This document shows, in pieces, positions 5,925 to 51,042 of a stretch of DNA of 52,975 bases. The stretch spans positions 1 through 52,975 of the IMG/VR virus record IMGVR_UViG_3300046170_000181; one strand, written 5' to 3'. The position numbers were made by a program, and so were the translations under genes. The notes beneath the pieces are model-generated. The model was given only the letters and a program-made list of their open reading frames with translations, did not search any database and was not told where the DNA came from. Within the stretch, counting starts at the first letter, position 1, and every line of letters starts with the position of its first letter. This DNA is from a virus.

Positions 5925-5960
5925 AGATTAGCTAAGTTATAATTGAACTACGCCACTAAT
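5925..5960 (-). promoter_or_regulatory. Candidate phage promoter element upstream of scaffold
   Basis: The minus strand reads ATTAGTGGCGTAGTTCAATT followed by ATAACTTAGCTAATCT, with TATAAC in the -10-like position. It is the same element as upstream of capsid, primase and helicase, located ~35 bases before the scaffold start. Confidence 0.55.
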
Positions 5961-13397: not shown

Positions 13398-13686
13398 CGG
13401 TCAGACTTCTGTTTTCCATATATCCGGCAACCTCACGGAGCTTATCCGTATGACGCTCGAATTCATTGGCTATCTGGTACAATTGACCGTAGCCTGTGCT
13501 TGTCATGTCATTCCGGTAGAATTCAATGAGGTTTTCGATGACATCCTCGAATAAAACACGGGATTCGACACTGTCATCTTCATCGTTTGGGAAAAGAAAT
13601 GTCTGAAGATAGAACCGGCCATCGGAATCGACTTCGAGGTCGTTCTCAACTGTTACCGGGATCTCAATATCAACTTTATCTGTCAT
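13375..13686 (-). CDS. Small acidic protein, unknown
   Basis: This 103-residue acidic protein (MTDKVDIEIPVTVENDLEVD, then RVLFEDVIENLIEFYRND and YQIANEFERHTDKLREVAG) looks like a beta-strand N-terminus followed by helices. It is the first gene of the leftward arm. A sigma70-like promoter lies ~55-80 bases upstream. No family is recognised. Overlap with the nuclease-like gene suggests translational coupling. Confidence 0.6.
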   Translation of the reverse strand: MTDKVDIEIPVTVENDLEVDSDGRFYLQTFLFPNDEDDSVESRVLFEDVIENLIEFYRNDMTSTGYGQLYQIANEFERHTDKLREVAGYMENRSLTDDIFADI

Positions 13687-13740
13687 AATAACGTATCACC
13701 ACATGATACATACCACAGGATAACTCCCGTAGTCTTAGTT

Positions 13741-13769
13741 ATCGTATAATAATCGTATAACTATGTCAA
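13741..13769 (-). promoter_or_regulatory. Sigma70-like promoter for the leftward arm
   Basis: On the minus strand TTGACA (13769-13764) is followed by a 17-base spacer and TACGAT (13746-13741), 4/6 to TATAAT. It points at the gene starting at 13686. The spacer contains repeated TATACGAT-type words. Confidence 0.55.
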
Positions 13770-13865
13770 CAACTATGGCCTTAGTGACATTTAACATACT
13801 ATATATCGTGTAACGTACGATATTCCGTACGGTTTATTCCGTATTAAGTCCGTTCAGGGCCAAGG

Positions 13866-13892
13866 TTGACAGTATTGATATCTCAATCCCTG
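13866..13892. repeat. Direct repeat copy 1, TTGACAGT element
   Basis: TTGACAGTATTGATATCTCA followed by ATCCCTG. It matches the copy at 13977-14003 at 23 of 27 positions. The centre is the dyad ATTGA-tatc-TCAAT, suggesting a protein-binding site. The TTGACA is not followed by a good -10 box. Confidence 0.6.
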
Positions 13893-13976
13893 AAATACGG
13901 TAGATTAATACCTTCATTTACAAATTCTAGTCCCGTACCGGTCTATTGATCTGAGTACGGAGCCCCTATGGGCCTG

Positions 13977-14003
13977 TTGACAGTGTTGATTTTCCAATCT
14001 CTG
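13977..14003. repeat. Direct repeat copy 2, TTGACAGT element
   Basis: TTGACAGTGTTGATTTTCCA followed by ATCTCTG, spaced 111 bases from copy 1. The dyad is weaker here (TTGA-tttt-CCAA). Confidence 0.6.
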
Positions 14004-14523
14004 GGCGTAGTTGTATACGCTAACCACTACCCCCCACCCGGCAGTCGCCCCGGCCCCCCTTGATCGGCCGCAAACCCTTGTAGAATATAGGTTTTTTAGG
14101 GTTAATCGTTTAGCGTTTAGTTATTTATTACAAAAGCCCGGCGGAATATTCCCGGGAAAAATAACCATAAAAAAACCACCGGCCCGGGCAAGCCCCCGGA
14201 AATAAACGGTTATTAAATCCGGGCCGCATAACTAGGGGTTATTCGCCGGCCATGGCCCGGGATTTTTCCCCGGTGCCCCCATTACGGAAACCATAAGCCG
14301 GCGGGACGGGGCCCCCGGTGCACGTTATCCGATATTTAAACCCTATCCCCCCGGCGTAAAGCCGGAACGGGCCCGGGGACGGTTTCACGATTAACGGCGT
14401 TTTAAAGCCCATTTAAAGCCCCTAATTATTCCCGGGCTAGGTTACCAGCCGGGGACGTATTAAAGCCCCCTATGGCCGTTATATGGCCGGCCAGCGGAAC
14501 GGTTAACCCGGCGCAATAAAAAA

Positions 14524-14545
14524 CCCCCGGACGTAATGCCGGGGG
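14524..14545 (-). terminator. Rho-independent terminator after DUF932 cassette
   Basis: CCCCCGG-acgtaatg-CCGGGGG. On the minus strand it is followed by TTTTTTATTG. Its stem and the adjoining AACAAG are the same as in the terminator at 15700-15721. Confidence 0.8.
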
Positions 14546-14573
14546 CTTGTTTCGTTTTTATCCGGGGGGGAAA

Positions 14574-14705
14574 TTATCCGCCGGCTTTCCATTCAATTAT
14601 TGCGGCATCAATTCCGGGGGCCATCCATAGCAGAACATAAAAAACCCCAAACATCAAAACCAGCGTTATGAATTCCGCAATGGCCGTTAATATTGTTTTA
14701 AACAT
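14574..14705 (-). CDS. Tiny single-pass membrane peptide
   Basis: The ATG at 14705 follows GAGGGGGCC, a good Shine-Dalgarno, 12 bases after the stop of the DUF932 gene. The 43-residue product is MFKTILTAIAEFITLVLMFG then VFYVLLWMAPGID and a short tail, so one transmembrane helix. The frame is open to 14756, but that overlaps the upstream gene and lacks a ribosome site. The partner cassette at 15749-15832 also ends in a tiny membrane peptide. Confidence 0.55.
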   Translation of the reverse strand: MFKTILTAIAEFITLVLMFGVFYVLLWMAPGIDAAIIEWKAGG

Positions 14706-14716
14706 ACCGGGCCCCC

Positions 14717-15589
14717 TCATTCCGCAATGCCGGCGATTTCTTCGGCCGCGTCCCATAATGAACGGTTTATTTTTACGTTATCCCGAACGGACGTTATCCC
14801 CCGGGCTTTCCGGAAATTGCCCCCGGGCTTTTTATCCGTCACGGATAGGATAGGGGCACCGCCGCGAATAACATTTTCTTGAACCCGGTTAAATGCAAGC
14901 CATGCATTCGGGCCGGCGTCCCCGTATCGATTGGCCGCGTTTAAAGCGGAAACCGTCCGGGCCGTAAAATAAGCCCCCCGGGGGATTTCTTCGCCGGCGT
15001 CAATTGCCCGGCTATCATTCCAGCGCATACCGGCGGCACGGATTGCGATTTCTTGCGCGGCCGCTTCGCTTATTTTCGTATCTTGCAAGCGGAAAATTCG
15101 TTCCATAAGCCGGGGCAATTCCCCCGCAATATCGGAAACCATGCTTTCAAAACCGGCCGCATTGCCCATGCTATGGCGTAACCGGGTTTCTATACCGTCC
15201 CCGGAAATTAGGCCATTGGAACAAATAAACCGATAACAGCCGGCGAATAATTTTAATGAGCTGGTGCCGTCATGGCTATTATATAGGATTAATTCGGCCC
15301 GGAATTCCCCGGCGTTGCCAGCGTCCCCCCGGTGCGAAAATGCCAGCATATGTTCCGCATAATTTTGGCCGTCAATTTTCCGGCTTCGCTTTTGCGCGGC
15401 TTGCGTTACGCCGTAACCGTAACCGTCCAAAATATCGATAGCATCCCCGGTGCTCAAATAACCGTAACGGCTTGACCGTTCCGGGCTTGCGTATCCGGTG
15501 AAAGCGGCCGGGGCTTTTGTTGATATATCCGCCGGGCTCATGAAACCGTCATTAAAGTTACGGCTAAAGATTAAATCTTGATTTCCCAT
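14717..15589 (-). CDS. DUF932-family protein
   Basis: This 290-residue protein resembles the phage/plasmid DUF932 (TIGR03299-like) family. It has LSTGDAIDILDGYGYGVTQA near residues 45-65, RAELILYNSHDGTSSLKLFA with GCYRFICSNGLISGDG near 105-135, and a helical C-terminal half ending in VTDKKPGGNFRKARGI. The biochemical function of the family is not established. The gene is one of two leftward cassettes with nearly the same leader and terminator. Its DNA is very rich in GGCC/CCGG compared with the phage backbone, suggesting separate acquisition or strong codon bias. Confidence 0.75.
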   Translation of the reverse strand: MGNQDLIFSRNFNDGFMSPADISTKAPAAFTGYASPERSSRYGYLSTGDAIDILDGYGYGVTQAAQKRSRKIDGQNYAEHMLAFSHRGDAGNAGEFRAELILYNSHDGTSSLKLFAGCYRFICSNGLISGDGIETRLRHSMGNAAGFESMVSDIAGELPRLMERIFRLQDTKISEAAAQEIAIRAAGMRWNDSRAIDAGEEIPRGAYFTARTVSALNAANRYGDAGPNAWLAFNRVQENVIRGGAPILSVTDKKPGGNFRKARGITSVRDNVKINRSLWDAAEEIAGIAE

Positions 15590-15684
15590 TTTTCACATTC
15601 CTTTTTTTAGCTAGTGAATTAACACCGGCGGCACCACGCCACCAGCTAAGGGCCATTATAAAACCAATTTAAATAAATTGTAAA
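15590..15684 (-). promoter_or_regulatory. Promoter and conserved leader of DUF932 cassette
   Basis: The minus strand has TTTACA (15684-15679), an 18-base spacer and TATAAT (15660-15655). A leader with GGTGCCGCCGGTGTTAATTC and ACTAGC, A7 and GGAATGTGAAAA runs up to the ATG. The last ~45 bases are nearly the same as the gp88-like leader. The AAAGGAA box is the ribosome site. Confidence 0.65.
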
Positions 15685-15699
15685 GCCATTAATAAAAAA

Positions 15700-15721
15700 C
15701 CCCCGGCACGGCGTCCGGGGG
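15700..15721 (-). terminator. Rho-independent terminator after gp88-like cassette
   Basis: CCCCCGG-cacggcgt-CCGGGGG, followed on the minus strand by TTTTTTATT. It separates the gp88-like cassette from the DUF932 promoter that begins 16 bases further on. Confidence 0.8.
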
Positions 15722-15748
15722 CTTGTTCTGTTATATGTTCCGGGCCGG

Positions 15749-15832
15749 TTACGTCCCGGCGGCTTTCGATATCAAAAGGGCTATCCAATACCAGAAAACG
15801 CAAAAGCCGATTGCGATATAAATCCCCCGCAT
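15749..15832 (-). CDS. Tiny membrane peptide coupled to gp88-like gene
   Basis: This 27-residue hydrophobic peptide (MRGIYIAIGFCVFWYWIALL, then ISKAAGT) starts inside the TAATG overlap with the gp88-like stop, a typical coupling arrangement. The product is one short membrane helix. Support is the coupling, the hydrophobicity, and the parallel with the peptide that follows the DUF932 gene. Confidence 0.45.
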   Translation of the reverse strand: MRGIYIAIGFCVFWYWIALLISKAAGT

Positions 15833-16533
15833 TATGCGGCAACCGTTAGCGCGTCCGGGTTATCAACTACAAAACCCCCGATATCCGCTTTTGCGATTTT
15901 TCCTTTTGCCTTTAATCCTACTATAACCCGGCCGGCTTTACTGTTTATTAAATCGCTTGCGTCCCCGTCAATAACCGGCCGGCCCATGAATTCCGCCGGG
16001 AAACCCCCCCGGAAAACTACGGCCAGCGGGATATTAAATTTTAAAGCCCGGTTAACTTGCGCGGCATATTGCGGCCGGCCAGAATAACTAAACATTAAAC
16101 GATAATTATCCGGCGTATTGCCAAGCCGGGCGGCGCGTTTTGTGTAATCGTAAAAATAAATATTCGGGAATAATTGCGGAATTCCTAATTTTTCCCATTC
16201 GATATCAGATAAAACATTAAGCCGGGCCGCCGGCATTAAATCCCGTTTTATGCAATATTTCTCAAAATTGGTTAATTCCCGGATCAATTGATCCATGAAT
16301 TCCGCCGGGTTATTCTGGAAAAATTCCGTTTTCTTTTGCCGGCTTTCATTAACGGATTTATAAACCCCGGCAAAACCGGTGCTTTTTAAGCATCCATCCA
16401 TGCACCCGGCGGCTTTACTACCGGGGCACAAAATCAAGTTAGGATATAGTGAAAGCCCGGCCACCTTATAAACGGCGTTTTTATTTGTTTTGGCCAGTTT
16501 TGTATTTGCGCCGGTTGTGTCTAATAGTTTCAT
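15832..16533 (-). CDS. gp88-like phage protein
   Basis: The start at 16533 (MKLLDTTGANTKLAKTNKNA) is chosen because AAAGGAACGCGAAAA lies just before it; the frame is open to 16677 but that part is leader sequence. The 233-residue product has LILCPGSKAAGCMDGCLKST (cysteine-rich, near residues 32-50), RLNVLSDIEWEK and FPNIYFYDYTKRAARLG. This is the pattern of the mycobacteriophage gene-product-88 (GP88) family, by recall. The cysteines could hold a metal or Fe-S cluster. Function is unknown. It shares the GC-rich composition of the DUF932 cassette. Confidence 0.7.
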   Translation of the reverse strand: MKLLDTTGANTKLAKTNKNAVYKVAGLSLYPNLILCPGSKAAGCMDGCLKSTGFAGVYKSVNESRQKKTEFFQNNPAEFMDQLIRELTNFEKYCIKRDLMPAARLNVLSDIEWEKLGIPQLFPNIYFYDYTKRAARLGNTPDNYRLMFSYSGRPQYAAQVNRALKFNIPLAVVFRGGFPAEFMGRPVIDGDASDLINSKAGRVIVGLKAKGKIAKADIGGFVVDNPDALTVAA

Positions 16534-16619
16534 TTTTCGCGTTCCTTTTTTAGCTAGTGAATTGAACCCGGCACCACACCGGGCCCGGATAGTATCGGGC
16601 CAAAATAAAAAAAACGCAA
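16534..16619 (-). promoter_or_regulatory. Promoter and conserved leader of gp88-like cassette
   Basis: On the minus strand TTGCGT (16619-16614), a 19-base spacer and TACTAT (16594-16589) are followed by GGTGTGGTGCCGGGTTCAAT, TCACTAGCTAAAAAAGG and AACGCGAAAA up to the ATG. The element TTCACTAGCTAAAAAA is shared with the DUF932 leader, and TTCACTAGCTAAAA recurs near 31717-31730. Confidence 0.6.
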
Positions 16620-16853
16620 TAACTAAATTATAACAACGCCACCGGGCCGGCCATGAAAAAAAATCTGTTATGACCATTATTTTATTTAGTTATTAATCTG
16701 TACATACATAGGTATGCATACAGTAGCAGTAAGTCTCCACGCGCCAGTTTTCAATAGTTCATGGTCTGTTCACGGAACACCCTTGTCAAACTACTCTCTG
16801 AATGATACTTCCATTTTATTGAAATAGAACTCAGTAAGAGAGGAGTGCATCAC

Positions 16854-17060
16854 TTGCCAAACAACAAAGTCAATATCCCATTAAAAATAGCCAAGGAAGT
16901 CCGATTAGCTTTGGATGATGCAATCGAATTGGCTGAAATGGGTAAGGAAGTCGAACTTATACAAGTTGGTAATGCTGTTATAGCCCTACAAAACAGCGAC
17001 TTAGAGGGTATTTTATGCCGTGTCGTTCCAGATGCACCTAAAATGAAGCTAGTAGGCTAA
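16854..17060 (+). CDS. Small protein, unknown (first rightward gene)
   Basis: I choose the TTG at 16854 because AGGAG lies 8 bases upstream; a GTG at 16845 would overlap that box. The 68-residue product (MPNNKVNIPLKIAKEVRLAL, DDAIELAEMGKEVELIQVGN, AVIALQNSD...) is helical then beta-stranded and lacks recognised motifs. It stands alone between its own promoter region and a strong terminator, so it is probably transcribed separately from the integrase. An immediate-early or lysogeny-related role is possible but unsupported. Confidence 0.55.
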   Translation: MPNNKVNIPLKIAKEVRLALDDAIELAEMGKEVELIQVGNAVIALQNSDLEGILCRVVPDAPKMKLVG

Positions 17061-17085
17061 TACACACTATAATACACACAAAAAG

Positions 17086-17129
17086 ACCCCCGGTGTTGTT
17101 CCCATAATGGGCACCGGGGGTTTAATTTT
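17086..17129 (+). terminator. Rho-independent terminator
   Basis: ACCCCCGGTG pairs with CACCGGGGGT (17112-17121) around a 16-base loop and is followed by TTAATTTT. It closes the 16854-17060 gene. The minus strand also has a T-run (TCTTTTTG), so it may work both ways. Confidence 0.8.
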
Positions 17130-17236
17130 GCCAAATTAATGACAAGAGATCACCAAGAACGCGAAGGGGAGGAACCGTTCCTAGTTTAGGAATCATACAA
17201 TAGTCCCGCATAGTTAGTCAACTAGTAACAAGAAGC

Positions 17237-17283
17237 TTGACGCGGTAGTTATCTTTTAGTTATGGTCTTAGCTGTCACCATAA
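17237..17283 (+). promoter_or_regulatory. Early promoter with inverted-repeat operator
   Basis: TTGACG (17237-17242), a 17-base spacer and TTATGG (17260-17265) give a plausible promoter for the integrase operon. The inverted repeat TTATGGT (17260-17266) / ACCATAA (17277-17283) covers the -10 box and start site. Such a site would block transcription when bound. ACCATAACTAG recurs at 19621-19631. Confidence 0.5.
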
Positions 17284-17301
17284 CTAGAAAGGTATCATGC
17301 T

Positions 17302-17493
17302 ATGAGCACACCTATAAAAATAGAGGAATACACCCCTCAAACAAACAGAGTACGTCCTGTTGATATGTTTACTGACGTACAACTAAACACCATACTTGAC
17401 CTTTGTGTTGAGTTTTTCCCCACCGATGACATCAAAAGAGTGCAACGAAAATGCACCCGTTTGCTTGATCATCCAGACACACCATTCGAGTAG
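17302..17493 (+). CDS. Small protein upstream of integrase, unknown
   Basis: This 63-residue acidic protein (MSTPIKIEEYTPQTNRVRPV, DMFTDVQLNTILDLCVEFFP, TDDIKRVQRKC...) is encoded nine bases before the integrase and has GAAAGGTATC as ribosome site. Size and place would suit an excisionase-type factor, but no winged-helix signature is evident, so I leave it unnamed. Confidence 0.6.
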   Translation: MSTPIKIEEYTPQTNRVRPVDMFTDVQLNTILDLCVEFFPTDDIKRVQRKCTRLLDHPDTPFE

Positions 17494-17502
17494 GGGATAG
17501 AT

Positions 17503-18204
17503 ATGCCGAAGTATGTAGAAAAGCGTACACGCGCCAGTGGAGAAATTTACTGGGCATTTAACCCAACCAAAGCCGTTCGTAATGCTTTGCACGAAAGCTA
17601 CCAACAGTTCGAGAGTCGGTCTGAGGCAGTTAAGTATGCCAAAGAGATAGAGCTACGGTTTGCGGATCACCGCCGGGGTATCCAAAGAGAAGCCCGGGTT
17701 AGTCAAGACACGGTCTTTGGGCTCATCTCATTCTATAAATCGACTACGGAATGGCAAAAGCTCAAGGACAATAGCAAACGGTTCTATGAGCTTATGATCC
17801 GTACAGCCTCTGATACATCTATACAGAACAGTCATCTTACTTTTGCTGAGTTACAATCTAATAACGTGAACTCAACACAAGCAGACAAGCTGTTTCAGTC
17901 TATTGAGAAGGCTGTTAGCCGGCACCGAGCACTCCACACTATAAAAATCCTGCGTAAGATATGGTTCGTGGGTCTTCGCCACGGAAAAGTATCAACTAAC
18001 CCCTTTCAGAATATGCGTTTGAAGGGTTTAGAAGACCGTAAGGTGCTTTGGGAGCCTGAACAGGTACAAAAGGTAATCCAGACAGCCGACAAGATGGGTA
18101 TAAGCTCAATCGGTACACTTGTATTGATGTGCTACGACCTTTGTCAGCGTCCCGGCGATATGCGTCAGCTCGTGTGGGATCAATACTCCAAGGGGTGTAT
18201 TTGA
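17503..18204 (+). CDS. int: Tyrosine integrase, N-terminal part (frameshifted)
   Basis: This is the first 233 residues of a phage integrase. It holds an arm-binding start (KYVEKRTRASGEIYWAFNPT), a core-binding SAM-like helical domain (residues ~65-165) and the beginning of the catalytic domain with the first catalytic Arg at R216 (CYDLCQRPGDMRQLVWDQ). The frame stops after YSKGCI. Removing one G from GGGG (18192-18195) gives YSKGVFEFEQEKTDTIVSVP and enters the next frame. The intact enzyme would be ~354 residues, normal for the family. Confidence 0.85.
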   Translation: MPKYVEKRTRASGEIYWAFNPTKAVRNALHESYQQFESRSEAVKYAKEIELRFADHRRGIQREARVSQDTVFGLISFYKSTTEWQKLKDNSKRFYELMIRTASDTSIQNSHLTFAELQSNNVNSTQADKLFQSIEKAVSRHRALHTIKILRKIWFVGLRHGKVSTNPFQNMRLKGLEDRKVLWEPEQVQKVIQTADKMGISSIGTLVLMCYDLCQRPGDMRQLVWDQYSKGCI

Positions 18205-18568
18205 ATTCGAGCAAGAGAAGACAGATACAATCGTATCAGTGCCGGCCAGCCCACGATTGCAGGAGCGTTTGGACGCACATAAGACCGATCCAGATGGCCC
18301 CATCATCGTGTGTGAGACTACGGGTAAGGCTTATGATCGTAACCTGTATGTCAAATACTTTGCCCGGATACGCAGAGCCGCCGGTCTTCCCAAGGAGCTT
18401 CAAATCCGTGATTTACGCCGTACAGGTGCCACTGAAATGGCAGAAGCGGGGTGTACTGAAGATGAGCTTCGCTCAGTAACCGGGCATCAGTCCCGGGATG
18501 TTCTTTCAATATATGTCCGGCCAACAACAAAGCTTGCGGCGGCGGGGATCAACAAGAGGTTTTCATGA
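18195..18568 (+). CDS. int: Tyrosine integrase, catalytic C-terminal part
   Basis: This continues the integrase in the second frame. It carries LQIRDLRRTGATEMAEAG (R-x-x-R; the usual His of HxxR is Arg here), TGHQSRD (catalytic His) and the nucleophile in LSIYVRPTT. An internal ATG-like start at 18239 is not the natural one. It ends in an ATGA overlap with thyX, so the two genes are translated together. With the attP-like site at 19.5 kb this implies site-specific integration into a tRNA gene. Confidence 0.85.
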
Positions 18569-50049: not shown

Positions 50050-51042
50050 TTAGCTTAACAAAATTCCTGAAAATGCATTATGATTACCACCGTAAAAATA
50101 TAAGTTTCCACTGTCAGAGGCGGCGGATACATAATCGTTTACGCTTAGATAGGTAACTGTAGAAAACATATTTCCAAGTGCGCCGGGGTCATTACCGGTC
50201 ATTGGCCTAAAGCCGCCAGCATGGCCGGATGTTGAGCCGTTAACCATAATTGTTGGTCTTGACTGACTGGTGGTGTTATTTGTTAGAGCAGACCAGCAAA
50301 ACAAATAGAATCCACTAACCGGTGCAGTAAACCTGTATGTTGTCGTGTCGTAGTGACCACCTACATTTTTATATGCGGTGTTTGCAGGAAATGCAGTACC
50401 GGAAGATACAGAAGTATAATTACTGTTGCTTGTTGCAGATGCCAAAAACGCTGGCTGATACGGCATCGTGACACGGCCTGAAGAATCAAGCCTCCAGCGG
50501 TATGAACTTGCGTTTCTGTCGTATATGACAAAACTGCCAGAACCTGTAGGGCCATTATCATCAGAACCCACTGTAAAATCTGAAGTATTATCACTATCTT
50601 GAAAACGAATAAACGCATTATGCACATCCCCTTTAACGCGCATAATATCAGTTCCGCCTGTGCTTCTAGTTATATCTACCTGATAGCTAGGGGAAGAATT
50701 ATTTACACCAACAGTTCCGTTAGCAACTGTACTTCCAGATATAGTAGCTTGAGAAGCCTCTAATGCGCTGTCTGAAGGGTGTACTACTGTCTGTAAAGCT
50801 CTACCTCTAAAGATAGCGTAAACGTCATCAGAAGAGCTTACAGCCTCAGTAAGAGTCAATGTAGAACCAGAACAAGAGTAAGCCTCAGTTGGCTCCTGTC
50901 GCACGTTATTGATAAAAAGCTCAATATCATTTGCGCCAGTTACAGGGTAATCAAGGCTGTAAGACGTACCACCGTTTCCAGTGATATCCTGCTTTGCAAA
51001 CGATACAAAATTGTTTACTGGCTTGTTACCCAAATATGCCAT
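50050..51042 (-). CDS. Tail protein with C1q-like C-terminal domain
   Basis: This 330-residue protein starts MAYLGNKPVNNFVSFAKQDI followed by a fibre attachment region (INNVRQEPTEAYSCSG) and a variable middle. The last ~130 residues fit a C1q/TNF-like jelly roll: PAFLASATSNSNYTSV, TAYKNVGGHYDTTTYRF, TAPVSGFYLFCWSAL and HNAFSGILLS, with the conserved aromatic and Gly positions. C1q-type heads trimerise and bind ligands. A receptor-binding role is likely. Confidence 0.7.
   Translation of the reverse strand: MAYLGNKPVNNFVSFAKQDITGNGGTSYSLDYPVTGANDIELFINNVRQEPTEAYSCSGSTLTLTEAVSSSDDVYAIFRGRALQTVVHPSDSALEASQATISGSTVANGTVGVNNSSPSYQVDITRSTGGTDIMRVKGDVHNAFIRFQDSDNTSDFTVGSDDNGPTGSGSFVIYDRNASSYRWRLDSSGRVTMPYQPAFLASATSNSNYTSVSSGTAFPANTAYKNVGGHYDTTTYRFTAPVSGFYLFCWSALTNNTTSQSRPTIMVNGSTSGHAGGFRPMTGNDPGALGNMFSTVTYLSVNDYVSAASDSGNLYFYGGNHNAFSGILLS

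Follow-up and report, generated by a model that had tools for sequence, protein, structure and literature searches.

A covarying leader hairpin before swappable genes in an HMO-2011-type marine podophage

Introduction

In the mycobacteriophages of cluster K, start-codon repeats (SAS) and an upstream inverted repeat (ESAS) have been described that are subcluster-specific and of unproven function (PMC3203893, PMC12699233); an mRNA hairpin in the ESAS was judged by its authors to be poorly supported (PMC3203893). The module reported here resembles them in that, within a single phage, non-structural genes from different families have a short repeat immediately ahead of the start codon. Upstream of this repeat, both systems have an inverted repeat; the SAS/ESAS sequence differs between subclusters, and a role in translation initiation or another form of expression control has been proposed for it. 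Small pentaloop hairpins near the transcript start are also known from the Lambda N/boxB (nut) system, where the boxB loop is made of purines, and from the rrn antitermination leaders. The hairpin of the present module is likewise a small pentaloop near the start of a phage transcript, but its loop reads GUGGU.

Here we analyse a virus contig of 52,975 bases (IMG/VR record IMGVR_UViG_3300046170_000181), called the window throughout its length, in which two neighbouring units share such a leader. Loci used for comparison carry L numbers.

Phage identity and setting of the module

The DNA polymerase encoded in the window shares 60% identity with its counterpart in roseophage CRP-3, 58% with that in CRP-235 and 38% with that in HMO-2011, in each case over 99–100% of the protein, and 57% with that in CRP-212. 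Profile matches place ThyX and an integrase beside the replication genes. On the basis of these identities and of this gene neighbourhood, the window is assigned to the HMO-2011-type marine podophages, near the CRP-3 group, with roseophages CRP-3, CRP-235 and CRP-212 as its nearest isolates. The CRP-3 group has been described, and CRP-3 integrates at a tRNA-Met gene (PMC9038755, PMC6918029).

The integrase region of the window is spread over several open frames of the plus strand (17503–18204, 18129–18479 and 18239–18568), and a frameshift or sequencing error may break the gene. A small gene upstream of it (16845–17060, plus strand) is directed away from the module, has an apparent terminator of its own at about 17090–17120 and matches no family.

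Two leftward units with a common plan

The module comprises two units on the minus strand, one with a GP88 gene (15832–16533, 233 aa) and one with a DUF932 gene (14717–15589, 290 aa). Both combine a leader with a tiny membrane ORF and end in a terminator of the same stem, a likeness that is more than chance. The first protein is a full-length match to the GP88 family, which takes its name from gene product 88 of mycobacteriophage L5 (Pfam PF17338, E 3.1e-33, 116 bits where the cut-off is 24.4, over positions 6–221 of 230 in the profile; phrog_1617, E 3.9e-49). The second belongs to the DUF932 family (PF06067, E 1.3e-26, 94 bits against a cut-off of 23, positions 5–227 of 227) and within it to a phrog_12094-like subfamily (E 6.9e-38). 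The two families are unrelated, in agreement with an earlier reading of the window from its letters alone (the sequence-only reading), which had called the main proteins unrelated.

The predicted GP88 fold (pLDDT 87) matches models of further viral GP88 proteins (best E 9e-20, TM 0.82); no solved relative was found by sequence or by a PDB fold search with the model. The DUF932 model is poor (pLDDT 66). All families found for the slot genes with Pfam and PHROG profiles are of unknown function. The host-takeover or anti-defence role suggested earlier for the slot was based on its position and on such families, and has no direct support.

The DUF932 unit has a sigma70-like promoter, TTTACA-18-TATAAT (15655–15684), with 11 of 12 matches in a promoter scan. 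The scan lists none for the GP88 unit, where a weak -10-like hexamer, TATTTT (16602–16607), was seen by eye only; it is followed by GGCCC, as in the DUF932 unit, and stands in the same register as the -10 box there. The expectation of sigma70-like promoters in both units therefore holds well for one of them and weakly for the other. Both units end in an intrinsic terminator, a GC stem followed by a U run, at 15724–15697 (GP88) and 14548–14521 (DUF932). The two terminators have a common 10-bp stem, AAGCCCCCGG/CCGGGGGTTT, and a TTTATT tail, as the idea of copied terminators requires, and differ in their loops; the leader hairpins have no U run.

A tiny membrane ORF is found in each unit, as had been noticed. 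That of the GP88 unit (15749–15832, minus strand) codes for a single-helix micropeptide of 27 aa, MRGIYIAIGFCVFWYWIALLISKAAGT, with the motif IGFxxFWxW, which recurs in related modules. That of the DUF932 unit (14574–14705, minus strand), taken from the ORF list, codes for 43 aa, MFKTILTAIAEFITLVLMFGVFYVLLWMAPG..., also with a single helix; it matches no Pfam or PHROG family, and this second ORF is conserved in position and type, not in sequence. When 1.1 Mb of loci were searched in six frames for [ILVMFTY]GFx[VACFILT]FW in ORFs of 20–70 aa, ten distinct forms were obtained, from the window to CRP-235, CRP-212 and L094. Every one is inside such a module; if the first cargo gene is present, the motif follows it at once or after a short distance. 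CRP-3 has LGFCTFW at the matching place. Synonymous changes mostly exceed non-synonymous ones in close relatives, which lends modest support to the micropeptide being coding. A tblastn search with the 27-aa peptide returned nothing, though related peptides exist in CRP-235, CRP-212 and CRP-3; the query is too short.

Structure and covariation of the leader

The leaders of the two units are 84% identical over 32 nucleotides (15603–15634 and 16546–16577), including TTCACTAGCTAAAAAA and the AAAGGA box, so that the proposal of one leader in both cassettes is borne out by alignment. Each forms a 9-bp hairpin with the loop GUGGU. In the GP88 unit (16542–16587, minus strand) the 5′ arm occupies 16586–16578, the loop 16577–16573 and the 3′ arm 16572–16564, followed by UUCACUAGCUAAAAAAGGAA. 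The corresponding parts of the DUF932 leader (15599–15647, minus strand) are 15646–15638, 15637–15633 and 15632–15624, followed by UUCACUAGCUAAAAAAAGGAA. In relatives found through GP88, the stretch from the -10 box to the start codon has the same plan: a hairpin with a GTGGT loop, (T)TNACTAGC or ACTAC, a run of A, the ribosome-binding site and ATG. The tail after the hairpin is thus ACUAGC/ACUAC-A-rich.

The stem covaries. In 14 distinct leaders it is paired in 86% of cells (60% in shuffles), 32 cells are altered on both sides (15.5 in shuffles), and the covariation score is 0.73, compared with 0.27 for shuffles and 0.33 for the best slid version; shuffles overstate significance for related sequences, and the slid controls, which keep the relatedness, stay low. 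Changes on both sides affect seven of the nine stem pairs, in leaders that all come from one clade and are not fully independent copies. GTGGT hairpins followed by ACTA occur 15 times in about 0.8 Mb. They come from eight contigs and in each case precede a GP88 or DUF932 gene; under a stricter stem rule GTGGT leads the loop counts with 13, the next pentamer having 6. When GTGGT and the tail were counted in the same contigs with no stem requirement, identical leaders were obtained, all of them stem-bearing; the stem is therefore not a product of selection in the search.

Folded singly, the leaders give the hairpin but no better than shuffles do (z +0.16 to -1.57), and the case for it therefore rests on covariation. 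The sense strand pairs better than the antisense strand (86% versus 66%) through G–U pairs; since composition alone yields nearly as many of these, RNA and DNA are not told apart by the strand asymmetry. The leaders are a conserved element that probably acts as RNA. A double-stranded DNA operator, with a repressor or activator binding to the inverted repeat, is an unlikely alternative, although inverted repeats beside promoters are commonly operators and the ESAS repeats have been read in this way (PMC3203893): the arm sequences are conserved neither between nor within phages and only their complementarity is kept, whereas a DNA-binding protein would need conserved arms.

What does not vary is the loop, which is GUGGU in 14 of 14 distinct leaders; the ACUA(G)C tail is likewise conserved, while the stem is free to change. 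This bears on the possibility that the hairpin is a generic 5′ stabiliser, shielding the mRNA from decay next to a tail that is simply a good ribosome-binding site, with no dedicated factor. The hairpin does lie close behind the -10 box and would thus sit at or near the 5′ end, its 9-bp GC-rich stem would protect, and the tail holds a Shine–Dalgarno-like AAAGGA. Such a stabiliser, however, needs no fixed loop, and we regard it as possible but not probable.

Antitermination is a further possibility: as a site of the nut or put kind, the leader would let polymerase run through the terminators of the cassettes. A small pentaloop hairpin at the transcript start and terminators inside the module would suit this, and in L020/L021 there are tails (CUUUAACA) similar to boxA of rrn leaders. 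The leaders of the window itself have no boxA, however, each unit has a promoter-like site and a terminator of its own, and no N-like partner was identified; antitermination is thus rather unlikely, though a little less so than a DNA operator.

Pairing of the loop (UGGU) with the tail (ACUA) in a pseudoknot was considered and rejected on geometry: there is no base to cross one groove, and 3–7 nt would have to span 9 bp. As both parts are invariant, it is also beyond proof by covariation. Rfam 15 gave only sub-threshold matches in 13500–17500, none of them on the leaders. Related leaders near 5944–5989 in L055 and L068 share another loop, AUUUAACCA, and have the same CTAGCTAAA tail; their 6-bp stems differ in sequence between the two loci and yet pair.

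Distribution of the leader and exchange of cargo

A covariance model of the leader, R1, was built from ten leaders. The window copies, which are in the model, score 47.1 bits (E 4.5e-9, GP88 unit) and 46.6 bits (E 5.8e-9, DUF932 unit). In 853 kb, R1 has 15 matches with E < 1e-7, and the next match has E 0.75; the copies of L021, L022 and L018 were not entered separately, and some of them are identical or nearly so to copies in the model. More matches, several of them clearly divergent in sequence, came from additional contigs with DUF932 or DUF7227 genes. All strong matches, spread over some twelve related contigs, precede cargo genes that belong to the module.

The leader appears to be confined to this module. 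Two collection-wide DNA pattern scans, which required near-exact tails and so would miss variants, gave no leader outside it, the other matches being chance or R1-negative. R1 has no match in the two alphaproteobacterial genomes searched, and relatives of GP88 in bacterial genomes are only 27–50% identical. Nor does it match the leaders of CRP-3, CRP-235 and CRP-212.

Behind the leader, the cargo differs between phages. The first unit carries GP88 in the window, L005 and L018–L023, and a DUF7227-like gene in L109, L112/L113 and L124 (phrog_2554, E 9e-65; Pfam DUF7227, E 5e-6, at 26.6 bits just below the cut-off of 27). GP88 and DUF7227 are not supported as homologues by profile comparison (probability 1.8%); a DUF7227 model is found weakly among the GP88 fold matches (E 0.12). 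The second unit carries the phrog_12094-type DUF932 in the window and, in the others, a distant phrog_1221-like DUF932 subfamily (22–23% identity). An extra leader copy precedes ORFs of 73 and 66 aa, of no known family, in L112/L113 and L111. One leader type thus introduces GP88, DUF7227-like, DUF932-A, DUF932-B, 73-aa and 66-aa cargos, and it is the frame that is conserved, not its content. This is what the sequence-only reading had proposed in describing a modular slot and an expression frame reused around different genes. It had also named what would speak against it, unrelated leaders or unconserved tiny ORFs in relatives; in the relatives surveyed, the leader is shared across cargos and the first tiny ORF is conserved.

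Lineage-specific leaders in other phages

CRP-3, CRP-235 and CRP-212 have a small-gene block with repeated leaders at the same place, and the label 'accessory' given earlier to the slot is for this reason doubtful. The micropeptide is present in them too, and CRP-235 keeps the order of GP88 followed by DUF932. The leaders of these roseophages differ in sequence from those of the window (e.g. CTAACTTGGAGA, AAACTTGAAAAGGAAATGACCAA): CRP-3 repeats CTAACTTGGAGA, CRP-212 repeats TCTAACTGGAG-TAAATGACCA and CRP-235 repeats AAACTT-AAAAGGAAATGACCAA. Other GP88 phages (e.g. L037, L041, L042, L050, L057, L068, L077 and L087) repeat a leader of their own above shuffled controls; many others do not.

In nine phages, leaders of different genes within one phage are more alike than leaders between phages (mean score 20.3 versus 10.1; 0 of 5000 permutations). 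Likeness of this kind would be expected if the leaders of a phage were served by one trans-acting reader specific to its lineage; gene conversion could contribute. At the extreme, the leaders would be functionless recent copies, spread with the cassettes by duplication or gene conversion, and leaders and terminators are indeed alike within a phage. This is very improbable, as the two stems of a phage differ and yet both pair, with loop and tail constant, which decay after copying would not preserve.

DNA texture and a conserved non-coding element

The sequence-only reading had described the cassettes as GC-rich and unlike the phage backbone in composition. The second part stands: CCGG occurs at 8.2 times expectation and the dinucleotide texture is abnormal. 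The first does not, G+C being only modestly raised (0.50 versus 0.455); the anomaly is an extreme block texture of strong and weak bases (S/W) at 14.03–16.66 kb, which includes 490 non-coding bases. From about 14030 to 16660 the odds are 0.40 for AG/CT, 0.59 for GA, 0.61 for AC, 0.63 for CA, 1.68 for AA and 1.55 for CC, with backbone values near 1 (AG about 0.9). AG odds in genomes normally lie at about 0.8–1.2.

The texture runs past the limit first drawn for the cassettes, down to about 14030, through non-coding DNA. This spacer (14030–14520) is as extreme as the rest (AG 0.40, CA 0.40, AA 1.85, CC 1.78, CCGG 41 per kb), and AG odds are alike in the spacer (0.40), DUF932 (0.40) and GP88 (0.41). 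The GP88 and DUF932 genes make no use of the codons CTC, GTC, ACT, AGA, AGG and CCA. Among 4,465 segments of 1.5 kb, from loci that were chosen for the module and are in several cases overlapping views of the same contigs, none is as extreme as the module of the window, and each of the 26 highest-ranking loci has such a module. The texture recurs at the same place in L019, whose GP88 is 67% identical, and in L113, which has other cargo (AG 0.49–0.52, spacers 0.29–0.48). Part of the textured stretch is also present in L018, a closely similar contig, and the texture is therefore no artefact of a single assembly.

Codon adaptation was rejected as its cause, the non-coding, leader and coding parts being equal. 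Restriction-site avoidance is unlikely, as most absent words are non-palindromic (ACTC, AGAG, CTCC, CAGG and CGAG are at zero); the palindrome GTAC is also absent. Plain horizontal transfer leaves AG odds of 0.40 unexplained, and relatives share the texture at the same place. A periodicity of S/W blocks of 11–13 bp is hinted at (P 0.011 in the spacer, 0.004 in the whole stretch and 0.08 in the spacers of two relatives).

CRP-212 is without the S/W texture and CRP-235 has a different one. In the CRP-235 module (L011:3120–3640, genes gp57–gp61) word diversity is also reduced, with other words (AAGC, GCCC, TGCA, CCCC); like the window, this module lacks ACTC and CTCC. A weaker S/W texture (1.24–1.27) without the GUGGU leader is seen in the GP88 or DUF7227 phages L062, L056 and L051 (around GP88) and L125 and L126 (around position 2000).

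The textured stretch ends at a conserved non-coding element, GTATACAAC...CAGAGATTGG, present even in CRP-235 and CRP-212. In the window it lies on the minus strand at 13976–14035 (GTATACAACTACGCCCAGAGATTGG...GTCAAC) and is common to L005, L019–L021, L111–L113, CRP-235 and CRP-212, phages with differing leaders. The form GGGGGGTACCCGTTACCGTATACAAC...CAGAGATTGGAAAAT...GTCAAC is located at 13976–14003 in the window, about 8540–8610 in L019, 49059–49099 in CRP-235 and 50378–50422 in CRP-212, and a second partial copy (82% over 28 nt) at 13865–13892 in the window. The textured non-coding spacer between the last cassette terminator and the element measures about 360–490 bases (window 14030–14520, L019 8160–8540, L113 4700–5060). 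The element is possibly an attachment site, an origin or a packaging site.

Discussion

The comparison of relatives is consistent with a slot of non-structural genes built of short transcription units, in each of which a promoter and the shared structured leader come before a single cargo gene, followed by a small ORF, usually a membrane one, and a terminator. The terminators would split the module into separate transcripts, and because of this each unit would need its own copy of a control element. The leader would act as RNA: its GUGGU hairpin, together with the ACUAGC-A-rich tail that surrounds the ribosome-binding site, may be read by a common factor of phage or host origin that sets the translation or stability of all units together. 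Loop, tail and the presence of pairing would be what this factor reads, and the sequence of the stem would go unread; it is this division between fixed and free parts that leads us to favour post-transcriptional co-control, which we consider on balance probable and place ahead of, in descending order, a 5′ stabiliser, antitermination, a DNA operator and functionless copies. The trans-acting factor, the post-transcriptional level and an early expression of the units are inferred; no candidate for a leader-binding factor was found.

Compared with SAS and ESAS, the stem covaries here and the loop is fixed, so that an mRNA hairpin is supported. The tails read ACTAGCTAAAAAAGGA, ACTACAAAAGGA and the like, ACUAGC-A-rich, and not the 13-bp GGGATAGGAGCCC that defines SAS a few bases before start codons with two mismatches allowed. 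The arms are of 8–9 bp with only pairing kept, instead of the imperfect 17-bp inverted repeats with conserved arm sequence of ESAS. Copies are few (2–3), each in its own terminated unit, and the phage group and hosts are others. Lineage-specific repeated leaders of phage non-structural genes are themselves known; new here are a probable RNA hairpin in them, the swapping of cargo behind the structured leader, a micropeptide that recurs in distant isolates and the S/W texture.

A further and tentative view, which we think doubtful, is that of a phage 'RNA regulon': a dedicated GUGGU-hairpin factor would switch exchangeable genes together, each lineage would evolve its own leader–factor pair, and the S/W texture would be a second, DNA-level signature of the module, of a kind not described before (e.g. 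of the binding, packing or mutation of its DNA). The texture, being the same in genes and non-coding DNA, needs a cause beyond codon use or simple gene transfer. The records of CRP-235 and CRP-212 leave the micropeptide unannotated. With a leader as the mark of swappable genes, further cargo can be sought, and a control element is at hand that can be tested.
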